The position numbers were made by a program, and so were the translations under genes. The notes beneath the pieces were generated by a model. The model saw only the letters and a list, made by a program, of their open reading frames with translations. It was not told where the DNA came from and made no database searches. A DNA stretch of 64,000 nucleotides. Source: Dyella sp. RRB7. Its GTDB lineage: Bacteria; Pseudomonadota; Gammaproteobacteria; Xanthomonadales; Rhodanobacteraceae. The DNA is taken from the NCBI RefSeq assembly GCF_022761115.1, contig NZ_JAKWJS010000002.1:248001-312000 (forward strand). Direction: 5' to 3'. Below are positions 5,802-38,872 of this stretch, piece after piece; the first letter of the stretch is position 1; each line of letters opens with the position of its first letter.

Positions 5802-7130
5802 TCAGAACTTGTAGCTGATCATCAAGCGGTTATAGGTAAACGACTCATTGCCCGGGTTGAGGTTGTCGATGCCGCCGGTGGAGCGCTCCCAGCGATCGCG
5901 CAGCGTCAAGCCTTTCAGGTAGCCATCGAAGTTGTAGATGATGTCCGCGTAGATGTCGTGGCTGTTGCCACGCAGGTCGGTATCGTACTTGGCGTAGGCC
6001 GCCACCAGCTGCAGCTTCTTGTCGAAGAAGTTGTACAGGGCCTTGGCTTTCCACGCGTGTCCCGGGCCCTCTTCCACCAGGCCGCGAATCATCGAGGTGG
6101 TGTAGAGCGGGTCGGTAGCGTAGTTGGTGGTATACGGCGAGATCAGCGCGCCGCCGCCCACGGCCCCGGCCTTGTAGGCCATCTTGTTATAGGCCACATC
6201 GACACGGCCATCGAACACCGACGTGCCCAGGTCGGCGCCCCAGGTATCGTTGCTTACGCGCGTGCCCGGCAGGCCGAACAACTTGGTCTGCGTATTCACC
6301 AACACGTTGTCGGTGCCGGTGTTCTCGGTCACGTACTGCGCGGCAATGAAGGGATTGAACGGCGTGCCGGTCTTGAGCGTATAGCTGCCTTCCACGTAGC
6401 CCATGCGGGCGAAATGCATGAAGTCGTAGTACCAGGCCTGGGCCTTGATGCCATTGCCGCTATACGTGGTGCCGCCGGTCCAGGTGCCCGTGGCCGAACG
6501 TGCATCCGCCGGTAGCGAGCCGTTGTTGCCATACATCGAGTCACCGTCATAGGTGCTCGGGTAGTAGAGGTTGTCCGCATACATGCCGTTGGACGTACGG
6601 CTCTTCCAGTCGAAGCTGCGGATGCCATAGATATCCCAGCCATCCACCGGCGTGAACTTGGTCAGGATGGCGTTGTAGGACGAGGGAATCACACGGGAAT
6701 CATTACCGCCCATCCAGGGCGTATTGAGGTACTGGAAGCCACCGCGCACCAAGACCCAGTCACGCTGGAACTGCGCGAACAACTGGCTGAAGGCACCGAT
6801 CGACTGGTGCGGCCCCATCAGCGATACGTCGATCTTGGCCACCGTGTCGGACTGCGTGCCCAGCGAGTTGGCGGTAACGAAGGAACCGCCGAAGCTGAAA
6901 CCACCGGCGAATGCGCCCGTCTGCGCATTGATCAATGCCGCCAGGGAGAAAGCGTGTGCGTCAGGCGTTTTGTTGGTGTCGTAGATGCGGGCGAAGTCAT
7001 AGGCGCGCAACTCGCCATCGACATGCCCCTGCGTGAAGATGTCATCGAAGCTGTTGTCGTCGGCACTGGCTTGCATGCAGTAGGTGCAGAGCAGCGTTGC
7101 CAAGGCGGCGGCAAGAAGTTTTACTGACAT
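5802..7130 (-). CDS. OprD-family outer-membrane porin
   Basis: Encodes 442 residues: a 23-residue signal peptide ending QASA, then a beta-rich protein with many aromatic-alternating strands, closing with YNRLMISYKF whose terminal Phe is the outer-membrane assembly signal. The N-terminal DGELRAYDFARIYD and the GGFQYLNTPWMGG segment match the OprD/OccD-OccK family of substrate-specific channels. The start has GGGGAGACG 8-9 bases upstream. The promoter region contains a ModE-type palindrome at 7174-7197, and the next upstream gene on the same strand is modE. This links the channel to molybdate status. The transported solute is not readable from sequence; molybdate or a substrate of a molybdoenzyme are the candidates. 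Confidence 0.85.
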   Translation of the reverse strand: MSVKLLAAALATLLCTYCMQASADDNSFDDIFTQGHVDGELRAYDFARIYDTNKTPDAHAFSLAALINAQTGAFAGGFSFGGSFVTANSLGTQSDTVAKIDVSLMGPHQSIGAFSQLFAQFQRDWVLVRGGFQYLNTPWMGGNDSRVIPSSYNAILTKFTPVDGWDIYGIRSFDWKSRTSNGMYADNLYYPSTYDGDSMYGNNGSLPADARSATGTWTGGTTYSGNGIKAQAWYYDFMHFARMGYVEGSYTLKTGTPFNPFIAAQYVTENTGTDNVLVNTQTKLFGLPGTRVSNDTWGADLGTSVFDGRVDVAYNKMAYKAGAVGGGALISPYTTNYATDPLYTTSMIRGLVEEGPGHAWKAKALYNFFDKKLQLVAAYAKYDTDLRGNSHDIYADIIYNFDGYLKGLTLRDRWERSTGGIDNLNPGNESFTYNRLMISYKF

Positions 7131-7173
7131 GTCTGACGTCTCCCCTAGTGATGTAAAAGGCTGGCCCCGTGGG

Positions 7174-7197
7174 CGTTATATATGTCACTACATAATG
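7174..7197. promoter_or_regulatory. ModE box upstream of the OprD-type porin
   Basis: Imperfect 24-bp palindrome: CGTTATATA, six bases, TACATAATG. The right half matches the complement of the left at 7 of 9 positions. The arrangement CG-N-TATATA, N6, TAYATA-N-CG is the known ModE operator architecture. The centre is about 55 bp before the porin start codon, so it would sit over or near the -35 region. An AT-rich island like this stands out in such GC-rich DNA. Confidence 0.8.
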
Positions 7198-7281
7198 GCG
7201 TCCATACGACTTTGCCACATGGGTGGCGCACGAGCCCGCATGAACTTGCGAAACAGCCAAGGCCTGGCCGGCAACGTCCGG

Positions 7282-8076
7282 TTAGTCCGTAGTGCCCAGG
7301 ATGATGCTCGATGCCTTGATGATGGCGACCACCGCCGCGCCTTCCTCAAGATCCAGCGTCTCGATGCTTTCGTTGGTGACGATGGCGACGATGACGCTGC
7401 CGCCATCCAGCTGGATCGTCACCTCGGCGTTGACTGCGCCACGCGTGATCCGGGTTACCCGGCCGGCCAGTTGATTGCGGGCAGACAGTCGCATCGATTC
7501 ACTGGGCAGCCCGATCAGCACGGAAGACGCCTTGATCAGCGCCATCGCCTCCCTGCCCGGCACCAGGCCCAGGTGCTGCGTGCTCTCGCAGGTGACGGTG
7601 GCCACGATGCGCTGGCCGCCGGCGATTTCCAGCTCCACCACATCGTTGACGGTGCCTTTGCGTACGACCACCACCTTGCCGGAAAACTGGTTACGTGCAC
7701 TGGTCCTGATCATCAAGCGCCTCATGAGTGACAGGTTGCGGAGGGATGCCTCATCCAGCGTGCGGAACTGCTCGACGAAGCGCCGATGTTCGGCCTCCAG
7801 CAGCTTGAAAGCCTTGATCAACTGCTCGCCATACGCCGTCAAGCGGGTGCCGCCGCCGTACCTCCCGCCGGTGGCGCGGACCACCAGCGGCTCGTCGGCC
7901 AGGTTGTTCATGGCGTCGATGGCGTCCCAGGCGCCTTTGTAGCTCATGCCGACGGCACGCGCAGCAGCGGAGATCGATCCGGTTTCACCGATCTTGGCCA
8001 GCAGCTCGATGCGGTCATGGCCGCCCAGCGTGCGATCGCCCGCCTGCAATGAAAGCATGCCCGTCAGTTGGAACAT
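7282..8076 (-). CDS. modE: ModE molybdate-responsive transcriptional regulator
   Basis: Encodes 264 residues in the full-length ModE layout. An N-terminal winged helix-turn-helix (ETGSISAAARAVGMSYKGAWDAID, residues about 29-52) is followed by a dimerisation helix region and two tandem MOP (molbindin) domains, each opening with the molybdate-pocket signature SARNQ (TSARNQF and LSARNQL). With molybdate bound, ModE represses uptake genes and activates some molybdoenzyme genes. The start at 8076 has a G-rich ribosome-binding site; the frame continues upstream without family similarity. It lies downstream of the cox operon and upstream of the porin carrying a ModE box. No modABC genes follow. Confidence 0.95.
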   Translation of the reverse strand: MFQLTGMLSLQAGDRTLGGHDRIELLAKIGETGSISAAARAVGMSYKGAWDAIDAMNNLADEPLVVRATGGRYGGGTRLTAYGEQLIKAFKLLEAEHRRFVEQFRTLDEASLRNLSLMRRLMIRTSARNQFSGKVVVVRKGTVNDVVELEIAGGQRIVATVTCESTQHLGLVPGREAMALIKASSVLIGLPSESMRLSARNQLAGRVTRITRGAVNAEVTIQLDGGSVIVAIVTNESIETLDLEEGAAVVAIIKASSIILGTTD

Positions 8077-8183: not shown

Positions 8184-8828
8184 TCACGGAGCCTGCGAGG
8201 CCAAGGCAAGGCCGGCCAGGCGCCGGCGAATCCGTGCGTAGTCGTCCGGCGTATCCATGTCGGTGGTGCAGCGGTCGTGCCCCACTTCGTAGCGAACGAC
8301 GTCTTGCGGGTGATCCTCGATCAGGTGGCGGCAGCCCGGATTGACCTGTCCACTGAGAACCTCGGGCACGCGGCTGGCGGCGAACACCACCGGGTTGCCG
8401 CGCTGGCCGTCATGGTACGGCACCAGGATGGCATCGCGCGGCAACGCCAGGAACGCCTGCGCCAGTTCCCGGTAGTCATCGGCCCGGAGCAGCACCATAT
8501 CGGCGAGGCAGATCATCACCGCCATGCAAGGGCGAGCGAGCGCCGCGAGGCCGGCGACCACCGATGTCATCTGGCCTTCCGCATGGCGCGGGTTGTGGCG
8601 GAAGCTCAGCGGCAAGCCGATCAGCGCGGCCATCACCTCGCGCCCGCGGTGGCCGGTCACCACCACCACTTCCTCGGGACCGGCATCGAGCAAGGCGCTG
8701 GCGGTGATACGGACTGCGGCCATCTCGCCATCGCCATGGGGCAGCGGCAGCAGTTGCTTGAATGCCCCCGCCATCCGCGACGAAGCCCCGGCGGCCAGCA
8801 GCACCACGGAGAACGGCGCCGCACTCAT
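8184..8828 (-). CDS. mocA: MocA-type molybdenum cofactor nucleotidyltransferase (cox operon copy)
   Basis: Encodes 214 residues of the MobA/MocA nucleotidyltransferase fold. The nucleotide-binding loop is VLLAAGASSRM with FKQLLPL following, and acidic metal-binding positions appear in LADMV and DMDTPDDY. MocA transfers CMP to molybdopterin-Mo, giving the dinucleotide form used by xanthine-oxidase-family enzymes, including CO dehydrogenase. Its start codon overlaps the stop of the preceding XdhC-YHS gene (ATGA), so translation is likely coupled, and it is the last cox-cluster gene before modE. A paralogue lies at 23716-24324 in the other hydroxylase operon, implying each enzyme has its own cofactor-maturation factors. 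Confidence 0.88.
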   Translation of the reverse strand: MSAAPFSVVLLAAGASSRMAGAFKQLLPLPHGDGEMAAVRITASALLDAGPEEVVVVTGHRGREVMAALIGLPLSFRHNPRHAEGQMTSVVAGLAALARPCMAVMICLADMVLLRADDYRELAQAFLALPRDAILVPYHDGQRGNPVVFAASRVPEVLSGQVNPGCRHLIEDHPQDVVRYEVGHDRCTTDMDTPDDYARIRRRLAGLALASQAP

Positions 8829-9859
8829 GTGCCGGCGCCCTGCGGCTCGGGTTGACGCATGCGCGCGCCGATATCCAGGTACTTGCGCGGGTTGCGCTCG
8901 AACTCCGCACGGCACCCGGTGCAGCAGAAATAGTGGGTCTGCCCTTCCATGGTCAGGCTGCTGAGCGCCGTGGCGGGATCGACCACGGCACCGCATACCG
9001 GATTCACATAGCCGGTGGCGACCGCCTTGCCGGCACCGGGCGAACCTTCCTTCTCCATCGCCGAGGCGCCTCCGGTGGCGGCCTCGCGCCGGCCATGCCG
9101 CAAGGCCACCAGCCCGGTCACTGCGGCCAGCGCGATCTCATGCGGCGTCATCGCGCCCACATCCGGCCCGGCGGGTGCGTGCATGTCGGCAAGCCGCTCT
9201 TCCCCGATGCCGCGCAACGCCATGGCCGCGCGCAGGCGCTCGGCCTTGCGGCGGCTGGCAATCACCAGCACGGCACGGGCCGACGATTGCAGGGCGTCTT
9301 CCAGCGCCGCTTCATCGCCATCCCCTTGGGTGGCCACCAGCGCATAGGATTCCGGACGATCAAGCATGGAGACGTGCACGGCCTCCGCAGGCACGCCATG
9401 GGCCGCGGCAAACTCGGCGGTGTCGGCCACGGCCGAATCCATCAGCGTCTCGAAGCCGACCTCGCGCGCAAACCAGGCGGCAGCCCGGGCCACGGGCGTA
9501 CTGCCGTACACGCGCAGGTGCGGCGTAACGGCCGCCGGCTGGATGAACAGCTCCACGTCGCCGTTGCTGGCGCACTGCATGGGCTGCACATCGACATCGC
9601 CCATCGGGTCGCCGCTGTTGCTCAGGCGCAGCCGTTGCGCATGCCCGGTGGCGATGACGCGCATGGCGGTGGCCTTGACCACGCTCTGCACACAGCCGCC
9701 ACCCACCCAGCCATGCAGGGTGCCGTCGGCCTCGACGATGGCCTGCGCACCGACATAGGCCGAGCTGGGTGGCTGCACCGCAATCACCGTGACCCAGGCG
9801 TGCGGGCGTGACTGGCGCAGGTATTCGCGCGCGAGATCGAGCAGTTCAGGAGTGCTCAT
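8825..9859 (-). CDS. XdhC/CoxF-family maturation factor fused to a C-terminal YHS domain
   Basis: Encodes 344 residues. Residues 1-255 form an XdhC/CoxI-type protein: GGGCVQS near residue 53, a Rossmann-like C-terminal half, and the closing GAMTPHEIALAAV. XdhC proteins bind and sulfurate the molybdenum cofactor for insertion. After a 25-residue linker, residues 284-330 form a YHS domain (VNPVCG, then FCCTGCRAEF, then NPRKYL), with cysteines 289, 312, 313 and 316 able to bind a metal. In Oligotropha the CoxD-E-F proteins build the unusual Cu-S-Mo centre of CO dehydrogenase, so a metal-binding domain on the XdhC protein is suggestive of copper delivery; that is inference. GGAGAC precedes the start, and the downstream mocA overlaps the stop codon. 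Confidence 0.88.
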   Translation of the reverse strand: MSTPELLDLAREYLRQSRPHAWVTVIAVQPPSSAYVGAQAIVEADGTLHGWVGGGCVQSVVKATAMRVIATGHAQRLRLSNSGDPMGDVDVQPMQCASNGDVELFIQPAAVTPHLRVYGSTPVARAAAWFAREVGFETLMDSAVADTAEFAAAHGVPAEAVHVSMLDRPESYALVATQGDGDEAALEDALQSSARAVLVIASRRKAERLRAAMALRGIGEERLADMHAPAGPDVGAMTPHEIALAAVTGLVALRHGRREAATGGASAMEKEGSPGAGKAVATGYVNPVCGAVVDPATALSSLTMEGQTHYFCCTGCRAEFERNPRKYLDIGARMRQPEPQGAGT

Positions 9860-9868
9860 GGCCGTCTC

Positions 9869-11065
9869 CTATCGCAAGGCCCGGATCAACGGCTCAAGCA
9901 CGCGCTCGACGCTGGCCAGGTCGTGCGCCGGTGCGTGCAGATCCAGGTAAGGCATGGCCGCCACGATGCCTTGGGCCAGCGGCTGGTAATCGTCGCGACC
10001 GGCCAGCGGGTTGAGCCACACCAGCCGCCGTGCGCGCCCGCGCAGGCGACGCAGCGTGCCGGCCAGCAGCGAGGCATCGCCGGTGTCGTAGCCATCGCTG
10101 ACCACGATCAGCGCGGTACGCGCATGCAGCAGCGAGGCGTGTTCGCGTTCGAACTGGCGCAGGCAATCGCCGATGCGGGTGCCGCCCGCCCAGCCCGCCG
10201 ACAGCCATTGCAGGCGCTCCTGCGCGCGCCACGGATCGGGGTCGCGCAGCGCTTCGCCCACGTCGCTCAACTGCGTATGCCAGATGAACACGTGAGTGTC
10301 CCAGTGCGCACCCAGCAGGGCGCGCGCCAGGCGCAGGAAGAAGAAGCTGTACAGGTTCATCGAGCGGCTCACGTCAAGCAGCAGTACCAGTCGCGGACGT
10401 TCACGGTGGCGCTCGCGGAACGCCAGTTCGATCGGCTCGCCGCCATGCGCAACGCTGCGTCGCGCCGTTCCGCGCAAGTCGATACGGCGCATGCCACCCG
10501 ACCGTTCGCGCCGCATCGCCAACCGGCGCAGACGCCGGGCCAGGCGACGCATCAGCGTGTCCAGTGCGCGCATGCTGTCGGGCTGATGCAGATGCCGGAA
10601 GTCGGCCTGCTCCAGCGCCTCCTCGCTGCTGGCACCACGCTGCGACGCGGCGCCATCGGTGCTGCCGATGGAGGCATCATTGGCCGCGGCCTGCGGCATG
10701 CCCTCGCTGCCATCGCCGGCTCCGGCTAGCGGCGCAGGCGACGTGTCCAGCACGCCCGCGCTGGATGACTGACTCGCCACCAGGCGCTGCCGGTTCGGCG
10801 GCAGGAACCAGGCATCGAACAGTTCGTCAAAGCGCGAACGATCGCCGGCACGGCGGCACAGCAGCGCCCGGGACGACCAGCGCAGCAGCTGCGGTTCAAG
10901 CAGGTCGATGCGACTGGCCGCCTCGACCAGCAACGCAGCGTCGTCCAGCCCCACCGCGAAACCGTTGGCGCGCAGGAAGGAAACGAAGCCGGTCAAGCGC
11001 ACGCACAGCGCCCGTTGCAGGGTTACCGGTGCCGCAGGGTTGGCATCGGCGCGACGGGTCAGCAT
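9869..11065 (-). CDS. coxE: CoxE-type VWA-domain protein
   Basis: Encodes 398 residues. The C-terminal half is a von Willebrand A domain with the metal-ion-dependent adhesion motif DVSRSM near residue 230 and VVSDGYDTGD further on. The N-terminal half carries the conserved RLTGFVSFLRANGF start of the CoxE family. CoxE works with the MoxR-type ATPase CoxD in maturing CO dehydrogenase, and is implicated in copper insertion in Oligotropha. A proline- and alanine-rich low-complexity stretch separates the halves. The start at 11065 lies inside the last codons of the ATPase gene (7-base overlap), so the two are translationally coupled. A longer upstream frame lacks family similarity. Confidence 0.88.
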   Translation of the reverse strand: MLTRRADANPAAPVTLQRALCVRLTGFVSFLRANGFAVGLDDAALLVEAASRIDLLEPQLLRWSSRALLCRRAGDRSRFDELFDAWFLPPNRQRLVASQSSSAGVLDTSPAPLAGAGDGSEGMPQAAANDASIGSTDGAASQRGASSEEALEQADFRHLHQPDSMRALDTLMRRLARRLRRLAMRRERSGGMRRIDLRGTARRSVAHGGEPIELAFRERHRERPRLVLLLDVSRSMNLYSFFFLRLARALLGAHWDTHVFIWHTQLSDVGEALRDPDPWRAQERLQWLSAGWAGGTRIGDCLRQFEREHASLLHARTALIVVSDGYDTGDASLLAGTLRRLRGRARRLVWLNPLAGRDDYQPLAQGIVAAMPYLDLHAPAHDLASVERVLEPLIRALR

Positions 11066-11946
11066 GACGCCACCAGCCGTCGCATCACGTCGGGACTGAC
11101 CTCGGCACAATCGGCGCGGGTTTTCAGCAGCGCGGCAAGGCTGTCCAGCAACGCCTCGGGACTGGCGGTGTCGAGCCGTTCCACGTGGAGGCGCAGCAGC
11201 GCGGCGGCCCAGTCCAGGGTTTCGGCAATGCCCGGCCGACGCTGCAGATCGAGCCGTCGCAGCGATTGCACGAACTCCACCAGTTGGCGTGCCAATGCGG
11301 CCGGCGCGGCCGGCACGCGCGTCTCGACGATCAGCAGTTCTTTTTCGAACGACGGGTATTCAAGGTAGTGATATAGGCAGCGCCGCCGCAGCGCGTCGGA
11401 CAGTTCACGCGTGCCGTTGCTGGTGAGCACCACCCACGGGCGCGAGCGCGCCGCGATGGTGCCCAGTTCAGGAATCGACAGCTGGAAGTCGGAAAGCAGC
11501 TCCAGCAGGTAGGCTTCGAAAGCCTCGTCGGCGCGGTCGATCTCGTCGATCAGCAGCACCACCGGCTGCTCGCGCGTGATCGACTCCAGCAGCGGCCGCT
11601 TGAGCAGGTAGCGCTCGGAAAAGATGTCCTGCTCCTTGTTCGCCATCGGCCGGTCGTCCTGCTCCAGCAGGCGTATCGCCAGCAACTGGCGCTGGTAGTT
11701 CCACTCGTACATGGCGGCATGCGCATCGAGCCCCTCGTAGCATTGCAGGCGCACGCAATCGGTCGCTTGCAGGCGCGCGAGTACCTTGGCCACTTCGGTC
11801 TTGCCCACGCCGGCGGCGCCTTCCAGCAGCAAGGGGCGGCGCAATTCGTTCATCAGCAACAGGACGGTGGCCAATGGTCGCTCGGCGACGTAGCCCAGCG
11901 CCAGCAGGCGTTGCTGCAGGGCGATGACGTCGCTCATGCGGTCCAT
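11059..11946 (-). CDS. coxD: CoxD-type MoxR AAA+ ATPase
   Basis: Encodes 295 residues of the MoxR AAA+ family. The Walker A loop GAAGVGKT is at residues 43-50, Walker B and sensor context appear in VVLLIDEIDRAD, and the arginine-finger region follows with ALRRRCLYHYL. CoxD of aerobic CO oxidisers is an ATPase needed for sulfuration of the molybdenum site of CO dehydrogenase. It usually pairs with the VWA protein encoded immediately downstream, as here. ATG codons at 11946 and 11937 are both possible; neither has a strong ribosome-binding site. It follows coxG by 17 bases in a single minus-strand operon. Confidence 0.9.
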   Translation of the reverse strand: MDRMSDVIALQQRLLALGYVAERPLATVLLLMNELRRPLLLEGAAGVGKTEVAKVLARLQATDCVRLQCYEGLDAHAAMYEWNYQRQLLAIRLLEQDDRPMANKEQDIFSERYLLKRPLLESITREQPVVLLIDEIDRADEAFEAYLLELLSDFQLSIPELGTIAARSRPWVVLTSNGTRELSDALRRRCLYHYLEYPSFEKELLIVETRVPAAPAALARQLVEFVQSLRRLDLQRRPGIAETLDWAAALLRLHVERLDTASPEALLDSLAALLKTRADCAEVSPDVMRRLVASC

Positions 11947-11963: not shown

Positions 11964-12590
11964 TCAGGCCGACCGGCTGCGGCCGAACAGGCCACGGAAC
12001 CAGTCACGGATCACGCCCCAGAACAGCCGCAAGGCGCTCAGCTCCTTGCTTGGCCTTGGCGTGGCGGCGGGGCTTTGCGCAGTCGGTGCGCCGGAAGGAG
12101 CCGCCGCATCGGGCTGGCCGGCGGCGACAGCCAGGCGCCGCACTTCGTCGGCGAAGTTGGCCGCGAATTGCTGCAGGATCTGCTCGGTGACGCTGCCCAT
12201 CATGCGCCCGCCGAAGGCCGCCGCCTTGCCGCTCACGGACACCTCGCTCTTGCCTGCCAGCTGGCTGGCACCGGGAGCGTCGCCCGCTTCCACCCGCGCC
12301 ACCAGATCCATCGAAGCACCCGAGGTTCCCGACGAATCCGATCCTTTGCCCACCAGGTGCACGGTGCGGTTGGGCGTGTCGATATCGACTACTTCGATAT
12401 CGCCTTTGAACGTGAGGCTGGCCGGGCCCACCTTCAGTGACACGGTGCCCTTGTAGTGGCGCTCATCGATGCGCTCGGTGATCCTGGCGCCCGGCATGCA
12501 GCCCGCCACGCCTTCGATGTTCTGCAGGAAGGTCCAGGTGGTGTCGCTGCCACCGGGCATGGGAAAGGTCTTTTCCAGTTCAAGCTTCAT
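11964..12590 (-). CDS. coxG: CoxG, CO dehydrogenase subunit G family (SRPBCC fold)
   Basis: Encodes 208 residues. The first 150 match the CoxG/SRPBCC family (MKLELEKTFPM start, IEGVAGCMPGA, GTVSLKVGP, then a GGRMM-ending helix). A proline-alanine linker leads to a short C-terminal hydrophobic/amphipathic helix (LRLFWGVIRDWFRGLF). That tail fits the known role of CoxG in attaching CO dehydrogenase to the cytoplasmic membrane and coupling it to quinone. The gene starts 3 bases after the coxL stop codon, so it is in the operon. Confidence 0.92.
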   Translation of the reverse strand: MKLELEKTFPMPGGSDTTWTFLQNIEGVAGCMPGARITERIDERHYKGTVSLKVGPASLTFKGDIEVVDIDTPNRTVHLVGKGSDSSGTSGASMDLVARVEAGDAPGASQLAGKSEVSVSGKAAAFGGRMMGSVTEQILQQFAANFADEVRRLAVAAGQPDAAAPSGAPTAQSPAATPRPSKELSALRLFWGVIRDWFRGLFGRSRSA

Positions 12591-12593
12591 CGC

Positions 12594-15002
12594 TCAATGC
12601 CTGTCCAGGCCAAGCGCATGCGATTGCTGCCAGATGCGGTAGGCGTTGTGCGGCATGTCCATATGGGTAACGCCCAGGTGGGCGAAGGCGTCCGTGACGG
12701 CGGATGAGAAGCAGGGTATGGAGCCCACGTGCGGCGACTCGGCCACGCCCTTGGCGCCAATCGGATGATGCGGGCTGGGCGTGACGGTGAAGTCGGTTTC
12801 CCACACCGGCGTCTCTACGGCGGTGGGCACGAAATAATCCATCAAGGTGCCGCCAAGCACGTTGCCCTGTTCGTCGTAAGGCAGCTGCTGGCCCATGGCC
12901 ACGGCAAAACCTTCGGTAAGGCCGCCGTGCACCTGTCCCTCGATGATCATCGGGTTGATGCGCGTGCCGCAATCATCCAGCGCGTAGAAACGCCTCACCC
13001 GGGTTTCGCCGGTGTAGCGATTGATGTCGAGTACGCAGACATAGGAACCGAAGGGGAAGGTGAAGTTGGGCGGGTCGTAGTACTCCACCGCTTCCAGCCC
13101 CATTTCCAGGCCCGGCGGTACGTTGTTGTACGCGGCCCAGGCCACTTCCTTCATGGTCTTGAGCTGTTCGGGCGAGCCCTTGACGACGAAGCGGTCGAGA
13201 TCGAAGGCCAGGTCGTCCGGGCTTACCTCCAGCAGATGCGCCGCGATCAGGCGCGCCTTCTCGCGGATCTTCCGCGCGCAGCGCGCCGTGGCCGCGCCGC
13301 CCACCGGCGTCGAACGCGAACCGTAGGTACCCAGGCCATAGGGCGCGGTGGAGGTGTCGCCCTCTTCCACCTGGATCACCGAGGCCGGAATGCCCGCCTC
13401 GGTGGCGATGATCTGGGCATAGGTGGTCTGGTGCCCCTGCCCCTGCGTGATGGTGCCCATGCGCGCGATGGCCGAGCCATCCGGGTGCACGCGGATCTCG
13501 CACGAGTCGAACATGCCCACGCCCAGGATGTCGCACATCTTGGACGGCCCTGCCCCGACGATCTCGGTGAAGGTGGTGACGCCGATGCCCATCAGCCATT
13601 CGGCATTCGGATCGGCGCGGCGCTCAGCCTGCTCCTGGCGCAGCGCCTGGTAGTCCACCGCATCCATCACCTTGCGCAGGGCCGGCTCGTAGTTGCCCGA
13701 GTCGTATTCCAGGCCAAGCGGCGTCTGATAGGGAAACTGTTCCTTCCTGATGAAATTGCGCAGGCGGATTTCGGCCTTGTCGATGCCCAGCCGCTGGGCC
13801 AGCACGTCGATCATGCGCTCGATCAGGTACACCGCCTCGGTGACCCGAAACGAACAGCGATATGCCACGCCACCCGGGAACTTGTTGGTGTAGACGCCAT
13901 CGACCGACACGAACGCATGGGGAATGGCGTACGAGCCGGTGCAGACGTGGAACATGCCGGCCGGCCACTTGGTGGGATCGGCACAGGCATCAAACGCGCC
14001 GTGGTCGGCGTACACATGCACGCGCAGCGCCTTGATCACGCCCTCTTTCGTTGCGGCCAGTTCGCCCGTCATCCAGTAATCGCGGGCGAACGCGGTGGTG
14101 GTGAGGTTTTCGCTGCGCGACTCGATCCATTTCACCGGCCGGCCCAGCACGATCGATGAGGCAATGGCGCAGACATAGCCCGGATACACCCCCACCTTGT
14201 TGCCGAAACCGCCGCCGATATCCGGCGAGATAATACGGATCTTCGACTCGGGAATGCTCGACAGCAGGCCCACCACGGTGCGCACCACATGCGGCGCCTG
14301 CGAGGTGATGTACACGGTGAGGTCACCCTTCACCTTGTCGTAGGAGGCGACGCAGCCGCAGGTTTCCAGCGGACACGGATGCACGCGCGGATACAGCATG
14401 TCCTGCTTCACCGTCACCTCGGCCTGCTCGAACGCGCGCGCGGTCTTGTCCTTGTCGCCCACTTCCCAGTTGAAGATGTGGTTGTGGTGGCGACGGGCGC
14501 CATGGGCGCCATCGGTCTTGCCGGCGAGATCCTCGCGCACTGCGGGCGCGTCGGGTTCCAGCGCTTTTTTCGGATCGACGACGGCGGGCAGTTCTTCGTA
14601 TTCCACTTCCACCAGGTCGGCGCCGTCGGCGGCGAGATAACGATCCTCGGCGATGACGAAGGCCACTTCCTGGTTCTGGAACGACACCTTGCCGTCGGCC
14701 AGCACGGCCTGCACGTCGCCGGCCAGGGTCGGCATCCAGTGCAGCTTGAACGGCTTGAGTTCTTCGGCGGTGATCACCGCGATCACGCCCGGCAAGGCCA
14801 GCGCGCGGCTAGCATCGATACGCTTGATGCGTGCGCTCGCATACGGGCTGCGCACCATCGCGCCGAAGCACATGCCCGGCATCTTCACGTCATCGACGTA
14901 GGTGCCCTTGCCCTGGATGAAGCGCGGGTCCTCGCGGCGCTTGCGCGCGCAACCGATGCCTTCGAGCTGGGTGAGTCGTTCGATGTTCGGTTCGAGACCC
15001 AT
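12594..15002 (-). CDS. coxL: form I aerobic carbon monoxide dehydrogenase, large subunit
   Basis: Encodes 802 residues, close to the 809 of Oligotropha CoxL. The subunit carries the molybdopterin-cytosine-dinucleotide site where CO is oxidised to CO2. The decisive feature is VAYRCSFR, the active-site loop specific to form I CoxL; its cysteine is residue 383, matching the copper-ligating cysteine 388 of Oligotropha. Form II enzymes have AYRGAGR there. Other family motifs are GGGFGNKV, GQGHQTTYAQ and, near the end, GAKGVAES with the base-catalytic glutamate. Gene order coxM-coxS-coxL is that of form I operons. The start has GAGGACA upstream. This is genuine CO dehydrogenase rather than a generic xanthine-dehydrogenase homologue. 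Confidence 0.96.
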   Translation of the reverse strand: MGLEPNIERLTQLEGIGCARKRREDPRFIQGKGTYVDDVKMPGMCFGAMVRSPYASARIKRIDASRALALPGVIAVITAEELKPFKLHWMPTLAGDVQAVLADGKVSFQNQEVAFVIAEDRYLAADGADLVEVEYEELPAVVDPKKALEPDAPAVREDLAGKTDGAHGARRHHNHIFNWEVGDKDKTARAFEQAEVTVKQDMLYPRVHPCPLETCGCVASYDKVKGDLTVYITSQAPHVVRTVVGLLSSIPESKIRIISPDIGGGFGNKVGVYPGYVCAIASSIVLGRPVKWIESRSENLTTTAFARDYWMTGELAATKEGVIKALRVHVYADHGAFDACADPTKWPAGMFHVCTGSYAIPHAFVSVDGVYTNKFPGGVAYRCSFRVTEAVYLIERMIDVLAQRLGIDKAEIRLRNFIRKEQFPYQTPLGLEYDSGNYEPALRKVMDAVDYQALRQEQAERRADPNAEWLMGIGVTTFTEIVGAGPSKMCDILGVGMFDSCEIRVHPDGSAIARMGTITQGQGHQTTYAQIIATEAGIPASVIQVEEGDTSTAPYGLGTYGSRSTPVGGAATARCARKIREKARLIAAHLLEVSPDDLAFDLDRFVVKGSPEQLKTMKEVAWAAYNNVPPGLEMGLEAVEYYDPPNFTFPFGSYVCVLDINRYTGETRVRRFYALDDCGTRINPMIIEGQVHGGLTEGFAVAMGQQLPYDEQGNVLGGTLMDYFVPTAVETPVWETDFTVTPSPHHPIGAKGVAESPHVGSIPCFSSAVTDAFAHLGVTHMDMPHNAYRIWQQSHALGLDRH

Positions 15003-15023: not shown

Positions 15024-15563
15024 TCAGGCCGTCACCGGCTCGGTGGATTGCTCCGCGCCTAGCAGCGGGTGCGAGGTTTCCACCGCCTCGCCGCGCAGCT
15101 TGCGCGCCGCGTACTGCACGGCCTTGACGATGTTCTGGTACCCCGTGCAGCGGCACAGGTTGCCCGCCATCCAGTAGCGCACTTCCTCGTCGGTGGGGTT
15201 GGGGTTTTCCTTCAGCAGCCGGTAGGCGCGCGTGATCATGCCCGGCGTGCAGAAGCCGCATTGCAGCGCATGCTCCTGCATGAAAGCTTCCTGCAGCGCA
15301 TGCAGTTCGCCGCCTTGTGCCATGCCTTCGATGGTGAGCAGCTCGGCACCCTCGGCCTGCACGGTGAGCACCGTGCACGACTTCACCGACTTGCCGTTCA
15401 TGTCGACCGTGCAGGCGCCGCAGTGCGAGGTGTCGCAACCGATATGCGGACCGGTATGCACGCAACGCTCGCGCAACGTGTGGATCAGCAACTCGCGCGG
15501 CTCGACCACCACATCGGTGTCGAGGCCGTTGAGCTTGAAACTCACCATGATCTTCTTGCTCAT
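15024..15563 (-). CDS. coxS: CO dehydrogenase small subunit (two 2Fe-2S clusters)
   Basis: Encodes 179 residues. It carries the two 2Fe-2S clusters that move electrons from the molybdenum site to the FAD of CoxM. The N-terminal plant-ferredoxin-type cluster is bound by [10 protein letters not shown] plus SCTVL; the C-terminal helical-domain cluster by CGFCTPGM and LCRCTGYQ. The residue count and motif order match CoxS. GGGAG lies at good spacing before the start. It sits between coxM (20-base gap) and coxL (21-base gap). Confidence 0.95.
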
Positions 15564-15582: not shown

Positions 15583-16452
15583 TCAATGCGCGGCGCGCAT
15601 GGCGGCGGTACGCAAGGCGCGTCGGGTCATCTCGCCGGCCATGGCGGTCTTGTAGTCCGCGTCGCCGCGCAGGTCCTCCGCCGGCTGGCAGATGGCCATG
15701 GCCAGGCGGGCCGCTTCGGCGATGGCCGGCTCGTCCAGTGGTTTCCCGCGCAGGAAGGCCTCGGCATCGCGCGCTTTCAACGCCGTGTCGGCGACATTGG
15801 TCAGGGCGATCGATACATCCTCGACGGTGTCGCCCTTCATGCGCAGCAGCACGGCGGCCGCCGCCGTGGCGAAATCGCCGGTCTTGCGCTTGAGCTTGGC
15901 GTAACACCAGCCGCTGCCCGCCGCAGGCAGCGGGATGCGGATCTCGGTGAGGATCTCATCCGGCTGCAGCGCGGTAGCGTAGGTGCCGAGAAAGAAATTA
16001 TCGTCGGCATGCACCACGCGCTCGGCGGCGGGGCTGCGCAACACGAACGACGCCCCCAGGCACAGCATCAGCGCCGGGTGGTCGTTGCCGGGATCACCGT
16101 GAGAGATATCGCCGCCAATGGTGCCCATGTAGCGCACCTGCGGGTCGGAGATCTGGCGCGCCGCCTCGACCAGCAGCGGGCAGCGTTCCTGCAGCAGCGG
16201 CGACCAGATCAATTCATTCTCGGTGGTCATGGCGCCGATGCGCAGTTCGTTGCCTTCAAGGCGTATGCCCTTGAGGTTGGCGATATGGCCAAGATCGATC
16301 AGGTGGCCCGGTTCGGCAAAGCGCAGCTTCATCATCGGCAGCAAGCTGTGACCGCCGGCAAGCAGCTTGGCATCCTCGCCCAGCTCGCCGAGCAGCTTGA
16401 GCGCATCGTCGATGGAGGTTGGCGCGTGGTAATCGAACAGACGCGGGATCAT
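15583..16452 (-). CDS. coxM: CO dehydrogenase medium subunit (FAD-binding)
   Basis: Encodes 289 residues of the FAD-binding medium subunit. The flavin-binding signatures are [15 protein letters not shown] (residues about 32-46) and [16 protein letters not shown] (near 110), both typical of CoxM/xanthine-dehydrogenase FAD domains, followed by the C-terminal alpha/beta domain. The start at 16452 was chosen because of the very good GAGGAGAGG ribosome-binding site and the canonical [11 protein letters not shown] beginning; an in-frame extension to 16617 has no family match. It is the first structural cox gene. A 198-base leader separates it from ompW and contains a hairpin at 16481-16498. Confidence 0.94.
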
Positions 16453-16480
16453 CGATGCCTCTCCTCGCACAACATGGCCC

Positions 16481-18468: not shown

Positions 18469-19779
18469 ATGTTCAAGCGTATCGTGCTGGTCGTGCTAAC
18501 GCTGATCGTGCTGGCCGTGGCGGGGTTGTTTGCCCTCGCCTACCGCCGCGCCATTCCGCCCGTGACGCCGCCGGTCGCCAGCGCGTTCGCGCCGGACCTG
18601 GTGGCCCGGGGCGAGATATTGGCGGGCGCCGGCTACTGCGCCACGTGCCATACCGCCAAGGGCGGCCAGCCGTACGCCGGCGGCTATGCCATGGTGACGC
18701 CGTTCGGCACGATCTATTCCACCAACATCACGCCCGATCCGGCCACCGGCATCGGCAACTGGTCGGAAGAAGCATTCCGGCGCGCCATGCACGATGGCGT
18801 GTCACGCGACGGCTCGCACCTGTTCCCGGCCTTTCCGTATCAGCACTTCAACCAGGTGACCGACGACGACATCAAGGCGCTGTATGCGTTCTTCATGACG
18901 CGTGCGCCGGTGAACGCGCCCGCGCGCCAGCCGGACATCCCCTTCCCGCTCAACCTGCGTGCCCTGCAGGCGGGCTGGAAACTGCTGTTCTTCCGCGACA
19001 ACGCGTATGGACCGATCAGCGGCAAGAGCCCCGAATGGGACCGCGGCGCTTACCTGGCCGAGGGCATCGCGCATTGTTCCGCCTGCCACAGTCCGCGCAA
19101 CGCCCTGGGCGCGGAGGACACCGGCAGCAGCCGCTACGGCGGCGCCGTGGTGGACAGCTGGTATGCGCCGCCGCTCAACGCCAGCAACCCGGCCCCGATC
19201 GCCTGGAACGTGGACGAGCTATATAGCTATCTACATAACGGTGGCACTGCCCTGCATGGCGTGGCCGCGGGATCGATGTCGCAGGTGATCCATCAAGGAC
19301 TGTCCAAGCTGCCGGATGCGGACGTGCATGCCATCGCCGTCTACATGGCCGATCGCATGGGCCACGGCGACCAGGGCGCCGCCCCGGACGCGGCACTCGC
19401 CAAGGTGATGACGGCGGCCACGCAAAGCAGCCTGCCACAGACGGCCCCAGGCGCCGCCATCTATGCCGCGGCCTGTGCCTCGTGCCACTACAACCGTGGA
19501 CCGACGCCGTTATTGGTGCGCCCGGAGCTGGGCCTCAACAGCGCACTGACCGGCACGGACCCTTCCACGTTGATCCAGGTGATCCTGCACGGCATCAATG
19601 CGGACGAAGGCCTACCCGGCCTGATGATGCCCGGCTTCGCGCACTCCTTCAGCGATGCCCAGGTGGCCGAGCTGGCCAACTGGCTGCGGCAGAACCGCAC
19701 CGACCAGGCACCGTGGCCCGACCTGGAGAAAAAGGTGGCCGAACTGCGCAAGCCATCCCCGCCCGACACGTCGAAGTGA
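18469..19779 (+). CDS. membrane-anchored triheme cytochrome c of a molybdenum hydroxylase
   Basis: Encodes 436 residues. An N-terminal hydrophobic segment (about 4-24) acts as a membrane anchor or signal; three c-type haem sites follow at CATCH (57-61), CSACH (203-207) and CASCH (336-340). The layout matches the cytochrome subunit found with periplasmic IorAB/aldehyde-dehydrogenase-type molybdoenzymes and with membrane alcohol dehydrogenases. It would accept electrons from the 2Fe-2S subunit encoded next and pass them to the respiratory chain. It is the first gene of the operon, 38 bases before the iron-sulfur subunit. The stretch encoding residues 250-258 contains a ModE-like palindrome with two rare CTA leucine codons, described separately. 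Confidence 0.88.
   Translation: MFKRIVLVVLTLIVLAVAGLFALAYRRAIPPVTPPVASAFAPDLVARGEILAGAGYCATCHTAKGGQPYAGGYAMVTPFGTIYSTNITPDPATGIGNWSEEAFRRAMHDGVSRDGSHLFPAFPYQHFNQVTDDDIKALYAFFMTRAPVNAPARQPDIPFPLNLRALQAGWKLLFFRDNAYGPISGKSPEWDRGAYLAEGIAHCSACHSPRNALGAEDTGSSRYGGAVVDSWYAPPLNASNPAPIAWNVDELYSYLHNGGTALHGVAAGSMSQVIHQGLSKLPDADVHAIAVYMADRMGHGDQGAAPDAALAKVMTAATQSSLPQTAPGAAIYAAACASCHYNRGPTPLLVRPELGLNSALTGTDPSTLIQVILHGINADEGLPGLMMPGFAHSFSDAQVAELANWLRQNRTDQAPWPDLEKKVAELRKPSPPDTSK
19217..19240. promoter_or_regulatory. intragenic ModE-type box in the cytochrome gene
   Basis: Palindrome AGCTATATA, six bases, TACATAACG, with the same half-sites and 6-base spacer as the box at 7174-7197. It differs from CG-N-TATATA, N6, TAYATA-N-CG at one position. 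It lies inside the coding sequence (codons 250-258, about 750 bp into the gene and 578 bp before the next start). It uses CTA twice and TAT twice in an otherwise GC-rich reading frame, which hints at selection on the DNA. Function unproven. Confidence 0.6.
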
Positions 19780-38531: not shown

Positions 38532-38559
38532 CCAGGTCAGGCAGGGCATGGATCGCCCT

Positions 38560-38722
38560 GGCCGGGGCAGGTCTTCGGGCTCGTGGACATGAGATGCCAC
38601 TGGCACCTCGCCTACTGTTCGCCGCTTCCCGGCCGTTCGGGCCAGTGCTGATGACGAAGGTCGTTTCCACACACCGCTGCGGGGCAGCGCCGGAATAGGC
38701 CCAGAGGGCCGCACCGGCTTCC
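38560..38722 (-). ncRNA. cobalamin riboswitch of metE
   Basis: Read on the minus strand, the leader shows the ordered consensus boxes of the B12 riboswitch: a 5' CCGGTGC element, GCGCTGCCCCGCAGCGGT (38673-38690), AGCACTGGCC (38639-38648), CCGGGAAGCGG around 38622-38632, and the terminal GAGCCCGAAGACCTGCC box (38566-38582). Order and spacing fit the adenosylcobalamin-binding fold. It lies 220 bases before metE; ligand binding would reduce MetE synthesis. Ends are approximate. Confidence 0.88.
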
Positions 38723-38730
38723 CTTTTAAA

Positions 38731-38760
38731 TCCATCCCTTTATCGAGATAAAGAGATGGA
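38731..38760. promoter_or_regulatory. 30-bp palindrome at the metE promoter
   Basis: Fourteen-base arms TCCATCCCTTTATC and GATAAAGAGATGGA flank a 2-base centre (GA); only one pair mismatches. It lies just upstream of the cobalamin riboswitch, where the metE promoter must be. It would serve well as a dimeric repressor operator. It is not a MetR or MetJ box as I know them; an ArsR-type methionine regulator such as SahR is one possibility. Confidence 0.55.
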
Positions 38761-38872
38761 TACCGTCGGCGGCACGAGTTTGCCGCTCCACGGTGACCGC
38801 CGTCAAGCAATGGTCGTGTGGGCGGTTTACGCTTCAGGAAGGCCGGCCCCGGGCGCCGCTGGCCACCTATTG

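Follow-up and report, generated by a model that had tools for sequence, protein, structure and literature searches.

A predicted ModE operator before a porin gene beside modE in Dyella and other Rhodanobacteraceae

A palindrome, CGTTATATATGTCACTACATAATG, lies between modE and a porin gene in a Dyella soil bacterium, and this arrangement raises the question of whether the molybdate sensor ModE controls an outer-membrane channel and, if it does, what that channel admits. An earlier note on this 64,000-nucleotide stretch of DNA (the window) had described a ModE-type palindrome ahead of a porin gene that directly follows modE, and we recover it in the same place, with 55 bp between the center of the box and the porin ATG and with seven of its nine base pairs matched. 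The same note took the porin to be under molybdate control and to be a possible entry route either for molybdate or for the substrate of a molybdoenzyme. Here, we place the window in the context of 233 Rhodanobacteraceae genomes, compare porin loci with and without modE as a neighbor, and weigh what the porin might carry.

The locus and its palindrome

The features of the window are collected in Table 1. The genes run on the same strand in the order coxM, coxS, coxL, coxG, coxD, coxE, an XdhC-like gene, a MocA-like gene, modE, and the porin gene, the last two of which are separated by 151 bp. The cluster has the attributes of a form I aerobic CO dehydrogenase, that is, a coxL above its curated cut-off, M and S subunit genes accompanied by accessory genes, and AYRCSFR in the CoxL translation, which we take to be the AYxCSFR loop of form I enzymes. 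The window ModE scores 105.1 bits against TIGR00637 (cut-off 98.5), has two Mop stretches, and matches E. coli ModE over its full length (1b9m, E 5.4e-40) with an identical SARNQ stretch. The modABC genes of this genome are found on another contig (locus L005, 5200-5900), behind a moeA-like gene as judged by eye, and carry no ModE box, with a best match of 10/18 before modA and none at 14/18 in 17 kb; this contrasts with most modE-adjacent modABC genes in relatives, and classical uptake would thus not share ModE control in this genome.

Table 1. Features of the window discussed in the text (positions are those of the window)
Feature	Position	Strand	Basis
Outer-membrane porin, 442 aa, weakly assigned to the OprD superfamily	5802..7130	-	family-level matches; signal-peptide-like start by eye
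ModE-type operator (predicted), palindrome CGTTATATA-N6-TACATAATG	7174..7197	.	upstream of porin; pattern scans and comparison
modE, LysR-like HTH and two TOBE/Mop domains	7282..8076	-	relative of E. coli ModE over its length
MobA/MocA-like nucleotidyltransferase	8184..8828	-	below curated cut-offs of named NCBIfam models
XdhC/CoxI-family maturation protein, C-terminal YHS (TRASH-like) domain	8825..9859	-	domain matches
CoxE-like VWA protein	9869..11110	-	domain matches
CoxD-like AAA ATPase	11059..11946	-	domain matches
CoxG-like protein	11964..12590	-	domain matches
coxL, aerobic CO dehydrogenase large (molybdenum) subunit	12594..15002	-	TIGR02416, 1445.9 bits (cut-off 991.15)
coxS-like 2Fe-2S subunit	15024..15563	-	domain matches
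coxM-like FAD subunit	15583..16455	-	domain matches
Second ModE-like palindrome, inside a cytochrome c coding sequence	19217..19240		pattern scan
Cobalamin riboswitch	38549..38782	-	Rfam RF00174, 96.4 bits

The operator consensus given for ModE at the modABC genes of E. coli and Geobacter is atCGnTATATA-N6-TATATAnCGat in the accessible text of two papers (PMC545781, PMC2700814). Against CGnTATATA-N6-TATATAnCG the window box has two mismatches, and it scores 17/18 against degenerate half-sites. As far as those accessible parts describe it, the modABC operator resembles the Dyella box in its palindrome, spacing, sensor, and short distance to the start codon; it differs in that the Dyella target is an outer-membrane channel rather than an inner-membrane ABC transporter or a molybdoenzyme. 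A scan with CGNTATATA-N6-TANATANCG, allowing up to three mismatches, returned four matches in the window (two places, each counted on both strands) against 0.12 expected. The pattern CGTTATAT-N7-TACATAACG, also with up to three mismatches, occurs at only two places in the 4.08-Mb genome, the box before the porin and the site at 19217, and its reversed control pattern has no match in the same genome. When the consensus was allowed two mismatches in 20 Dyella genomes, 16 places were found versus 4 for the reversed pattern; six of the 16 head the gene of this porin or the small gene before it, three head a TonB receptor gene, and seven lie elsewhere. A single match at two mismatches is therefore modest evidence, and it is the comparison between genomes that carries weight.

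Three further observations concern the window. The second palindrome, which encodes ELYSYLHN, is followed some 600 bp later by genes for another MoCo-binding oxidoreductase and is likely a chance match. A sigma-70 scan of positions 7050-7350 gave no promoter at or above the scan threshold. A Moco riboswitch was considered as a rival form of control and rejected, as the window at Rfam gathering scores holds the cobalamin riboswitch only.

Porin and modE loci across the Rhodanobacteraceae

The porin is found in 83 of the 233 Rhodanobacteraceae genomes. We took 87 copies with a length of 85% or more, the window included, and the final table comprises 86 upstream regions; the L153 copy, cut by a contig end, enters the 13/18 upstream scan and is not among the 86. 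Fragments (G178, G220:C244, two of G131:C35, and the second of G109) were left out. A ModE box is present at 20/20 modE-adjacent porin loci, of which 12 form one clade; the counts follow species rather than independent events. The boxed species include the cultured Dyella nitratireducens and D. lipolytica. In 12 of the 20, a box of at least 13/18 lies directly upstream of the porin, and in the other 8 the order is modE, box, a small Oxidored_molyb (PF00174) gene, and the porin, where the PF00174 assignment comes from a scan of one copy and from similarity for the others. The 66 other porin loci have no box at 13/18 within 400 bp upstream and none at 14/18 in the whole stretch; three of them have modE 3.4-6.8 kb away. 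The prediction of ModE control made in the earlier note is thus supported by related genomes where the two genes adjoin. It had also held that absence of the palindrome from close relatives keeping both modE and the porin would speak against such control, and here the outcome is divided, since the box is invariably present when the genes are adjacent, whereas in 20 genomes in which full-length modE and the porin lie apart the porin is unboxed. The porin is therefore not obligatorily a molybdate channel.

Porin and full-length modE tend to occur together, with a porin in 40 of the 58 genomes that have modE versus 43 of the 175 that do not (uncorrected for kinship). Adjacent pairs are arranged on the same strand in 15 loci and tail-to-tail in 5 (L067, L072, L077, L080, and L082), and with two such layouts, inheritance of a single operon does not by itself account for the pairing. 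A rapidly built porin tree requires no fewer than four changes of the modE-adjacent label, and starred branches force two of these; in that tree, L077, L080, and L082 fall within groups of unboxed Dyella copies. Only two of the 20 boxed porin loci (the window and L075) show cox genes within the few kb covered past modE.

A complementary analysis started from modE. We collected 58 full-length modE loci, corresponding to all Rhodanobacteraceae genomes with a TIGR00637 score of at least 85 bits; 42 of these pass the curated cut-off of 98.5 and 16 fall below it. Genomes with an HTH-only ModE (about 74-83 bits) were left out, and L285, L288, and L298 were also removed. The gene next to modE encodes an OprD-type porin in 20 loci, a Porin_4 porin in 3, a TonB-dependent receptor of ~820 aa in 9, ModABC in 16 (the adjacency familiar from known modABC control), and other proteins in 10. 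The three Porin_4 genes sit behind a small molybdopterin-fold gene. An outer-membrane gene and modABC never both adjoin modE (0/58). A box of at least 13/18 is found within 3.5 kb of modE in 20/20 porin, 3/3 Porin_4, 9/9 receptor, 15/16 modABC, and 3/10 other loci. At a threshold of 14/18, the same interval holds a box in 46/58 loci, where 25 scrambled half-sites gave 0.68 on average and never more than 9, and at 15/18 the count near modE is 36/58 versus 0.08 for scrambled half-sites. The neighbor counts at these 58 loci thus show a recurrent pattern in Rhodanobacteraceae, in which an outer-membrane uptake gene is preceded by a ModE box. Among the 10 others, L281 and L282 have a box, a molybdopterin-fold gene, and a second receptor type; L280 shows a box and the molybdopterin-fold gene but no recognizable outer-membrane gene; L165 has a box 5 kb from modE, before a solute-binding protein; and no box was found at modE loci L070, L071, L074, L163, L274, and L276.

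Elsewhere in the order, 5 of 223 genomes outside the family contain a site that departs from the consensus by no more than one mismatch. Four of these sites precede modE or modA as judged by eye, no gene is recognizable at one (L301), and no outer-membrane gene was recognized at the five, so that predicted ModE control of an outer-membrane gene is seen only within Rhodanobacteraceae.

Several boxed genes were noted along the way. The small Oxidored_molyb protein looks exported, is encoded behind the box at L075, L085, L088, L092-L095, L102, L154-L156, and L280-L282, and its gene mostly precedes a porin or receptor gene. By eye, the domain lacks cysteine in the L094 and L102 copies and contains it in that of L281, so that Mo ligation may be atypical in some of these proteins. 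Boxed receptors of ~820 aa are found at L157, L158, L160, L161, L166, L263, L270, L273, L277, and L303, mostly divergent from modE. In genome G110 (locus L274), a boxed receptor apparently of the same family is encoded at a distance of about 14 kb from modE, and in G121 a receptor is boxed in addition to modABC. A further Dyella box (L284, 6005-6028) is flanked by an fdhD-like gene and by the gene of a molybdopterin oxidoreductase resembling periplasmic nitrate reductase, and at L283 (6052-6075) a box precedes the gene of a His-rich 399-aa protein, a possible barrel with a marginal Phenol_MetA_deg match at the cut-off.

The porin family and its phosphate-linked sisters

Members of the OprD superfamily are 18-strand barrels with a basic ladder, and those known carry small carboxylates or amino acids. 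The window porin alone has no Pfam or NCBIfam match. With the E-value limit set permissively at 10, Pfam OprD (PF03573) matches 10 of 20 family members, the best value being 1.6e-8, and the porin-family profile matches OpdO (8.4e-5) and VanP (1.4e-4) in the N-terminal part. These comparisons tentatively place the porin in the OprD superfamily, weakly and at the family level, where the designation OprD-type used in the earlier note would apply. The closest named relatives are from Dyella species (73-74%), the mature window porin has a net charge of -8, and 9 Arg and 4 Asp are invariant among 75 porin sequences. Residues that might separate ModE-type from PhoB-type porins were sought and set aside, with seven near-sorting alignment columns, none of them clean. 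In addition to the weakness of the similarity, the branch that contains the window porin differs from OpdO and VanP in that it accompanies anion-uptake genes.

That company is most evident at 30 porin loci near one or more pst/phoU-like genes. Of these 30 upstream regions, 23 contain a PHO-like box scoring 11/14 or better, four of them perfect, versus 1 of 90 mononucleotide shuffles. By the same threshold, a PHO box is found at 0/20 modE-adjacent porins (the window included), 2/3 modE-near, 0/6 nir-linked, and 9/27 of the remaining porins; the last class includes Dyella copies, among which L073 has a perfect PHO-like box. FNR-type boxes before nir-linked porins (4/6 at 8/10) show no firm excess. 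The same porin family also occurs inside a denitrification-like cluster with copper oxidase/cytochrome and NorB-like genes in Rhodanobacter (L115 and L117-L119). The Acidithiobacillus ferriphilus copy (L241) follows an ABC operon; this locus was first read as a modC-porin pair, and was excluded from the molybdate count since its ORFs look by eye like a NitT/TauT-type operon. Overall, anion uptake is a recurrent theme among the neighbors of this porin branch. In the Pho regulon, porins made on phosphate starvation are of the OprP/OprO type, which the PHO-boxed sisters beside pst resemble in their regulation; the window porin differs in having a ModE box and no PHO box.

Candidate control, cargo, and rival explanations

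The accessible text of PMC8264917 and PMC9171197 places modABC under negative control by ModE, and the geometry of the boxes is reminiscent of that role. From box center to ATG (start codons assigned by script), the distance is 53-145 bp for 12 porins, 25-81 bp for 9 receptors, and mostly 26-40 bp for 16 modA genes. The box at the Luteibacter modA (L264) extends over TTGACC-18-TATATT, and that of the window contains TATAAC, a layout that points to a repressor. By analogy with the ModE-repressed modA promoter, the palindrome would be a ModE operator in the porin promoter, and molybdate-loaded ModE on the core promoter would turn the porin off. When Mo is scarce, ModE would lose molybdate and release the DNA, the porin would be made, and it would widen the outer membrane for molybdate (and probably other oxyanions, e.g. 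tungstate) ahead of ModABC. We consider it probable that molybdate-ModE represses the porin and that the porin opens an oxyanion/molybdate route under Mo scarcity. We infer all three elements, ModE binding, repression over activation, and molybdate as cargo, the last from the regulator, the neighbors, and displacement by other importers; its range could be broader than molybdate. The transport reading gains weight because the boxed place beside modE is held elsewhere by other outer-membrane importers or by modABC. Of the two routes offered in the earlier note, entry of molybdate is strengthened by these same occupants, whereas entry of a molybdoenzyme substrate becomes less likely, with cox genes at just 2/20 loci in the few kb read.

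That second route would have molybdate-loaded ModE activate the porin, which then admits the substrate of a molybdoenzyme instead of molybdate. ModE does activate at the moaA S1 promoter, according to the accessible part of PMC2408646. The window modE and porin follow a CO dehydrogenase cluster, and the L284 box adjoins a molybdopterin oxidoreductase gene. CO, however, needs no porin, cox genes are rare in the stretches read around boxed porins, modABC or TonB receptors hold the same place in relatives, and the boxes lie near the start codon as they do at modA; we thus regard activation as quite unlikely. A broad anion channel whose main ion is phosphate, sulfate, or tungstate, with ModE only tuning overall anion permeability, is also unlikely, if a little less so. 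It would fit the sister porins, which lie by pst with PHO boxes, in denitrification-like clusters, and behind a NitT/TauT-like ABC operon, as well as the lack of a diagnostic residue change between porin types, but PHO boxes of 11/14 or better are absent from all 20 ModE-type porins, whose genomes each show a single porin copy, and phosphate-linked control is therefore gone there.

A cargo in the form of a molybdenum complex (e.g. with a catecholate or other metallophore), for which the porin and the TonB receptors would be alternative gates, draws on the 11/58 modE loci in which TonB-dependent receptors hold the boxed place and on the complexed cargo that such receptors usually carry; porins pass small solutes by diffusion, and we consider this reading improbable. 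A chance match to AT-rich sequence, or a leftover without function, is a highly unlikely account of the palindrome. Single matches do occur, as the one inside the coding sequence at 19217 and the 4 (versus 16) places of the reversed consensus in the genus attest, but against chance stand the four window matches where 0.12 were expected, the division of porins into 20/20 boxed beside modE and 0/66 elsewhere, and the 46/58 boxed modE loci versus a mean of 0.68 for scrambled motifs.

Repression of the porin by molybdate-ModE, the reading we favor, has partial precedents. Fur-boxed porins in Geobacter and Desulfuromonas were predicted to be ferrous iron gates (PMC545781); in the accessible text they are alike in having a metal-regulator box before a porin, read as metal entry, and differ in the metal and regulator (iron and Fur), in belonging to other porin families, and in that no displacement by receptors is described there. 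Pseudomonas aeruginosa has a dedicated outer-membrane step for molybdate, in which secreted ModA acts with the receptor IcmP (PMC9769707, PMC9171197, PMC11734730), and the available portions of these papers describe no ModE-controlled porin. One review, in its accessible part, considers molybdate to diffuse through porins (PMC8264917). The open literature, in the portions available, yielded no ModE-controlled porin, receptor, or other outer-membrane gene, and an earlier prediction may exist in subscription papers or RegPrecise.

The wider proposal, to which we give slightly better than even chances, is that the outer-membrane step of Mo uptake in Rhodanobacteraceae is a dedicated ModE-controlled module, in which one place beside modE is filled by a recruited importer: an OprD-type porin with PhoB-controlled sisters, a Porin_4 porin, a TonB-dependent receptor, or modABC. 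Between the box and the outer-membrane gene there is often a gene for a small periplasmic protein of the molybdopterin fold. The porin would have changed nutrient by changing its operator. The pattern suggests that molybdate does not simply leak passively across the outer membrane and that its passage there is regulated as a separate step. If this is right, Rhodanobacteraceae would have a named, metal-controlled gate with natural replicates, in the form of several outer-membrane protein families in the same place and of sister porins with phosphate-type boxes. The outer-membrane step would then be directly testable in a cultured genus, and the porin would provide a clean case of a transporter that changes nutrient through operator exchange.
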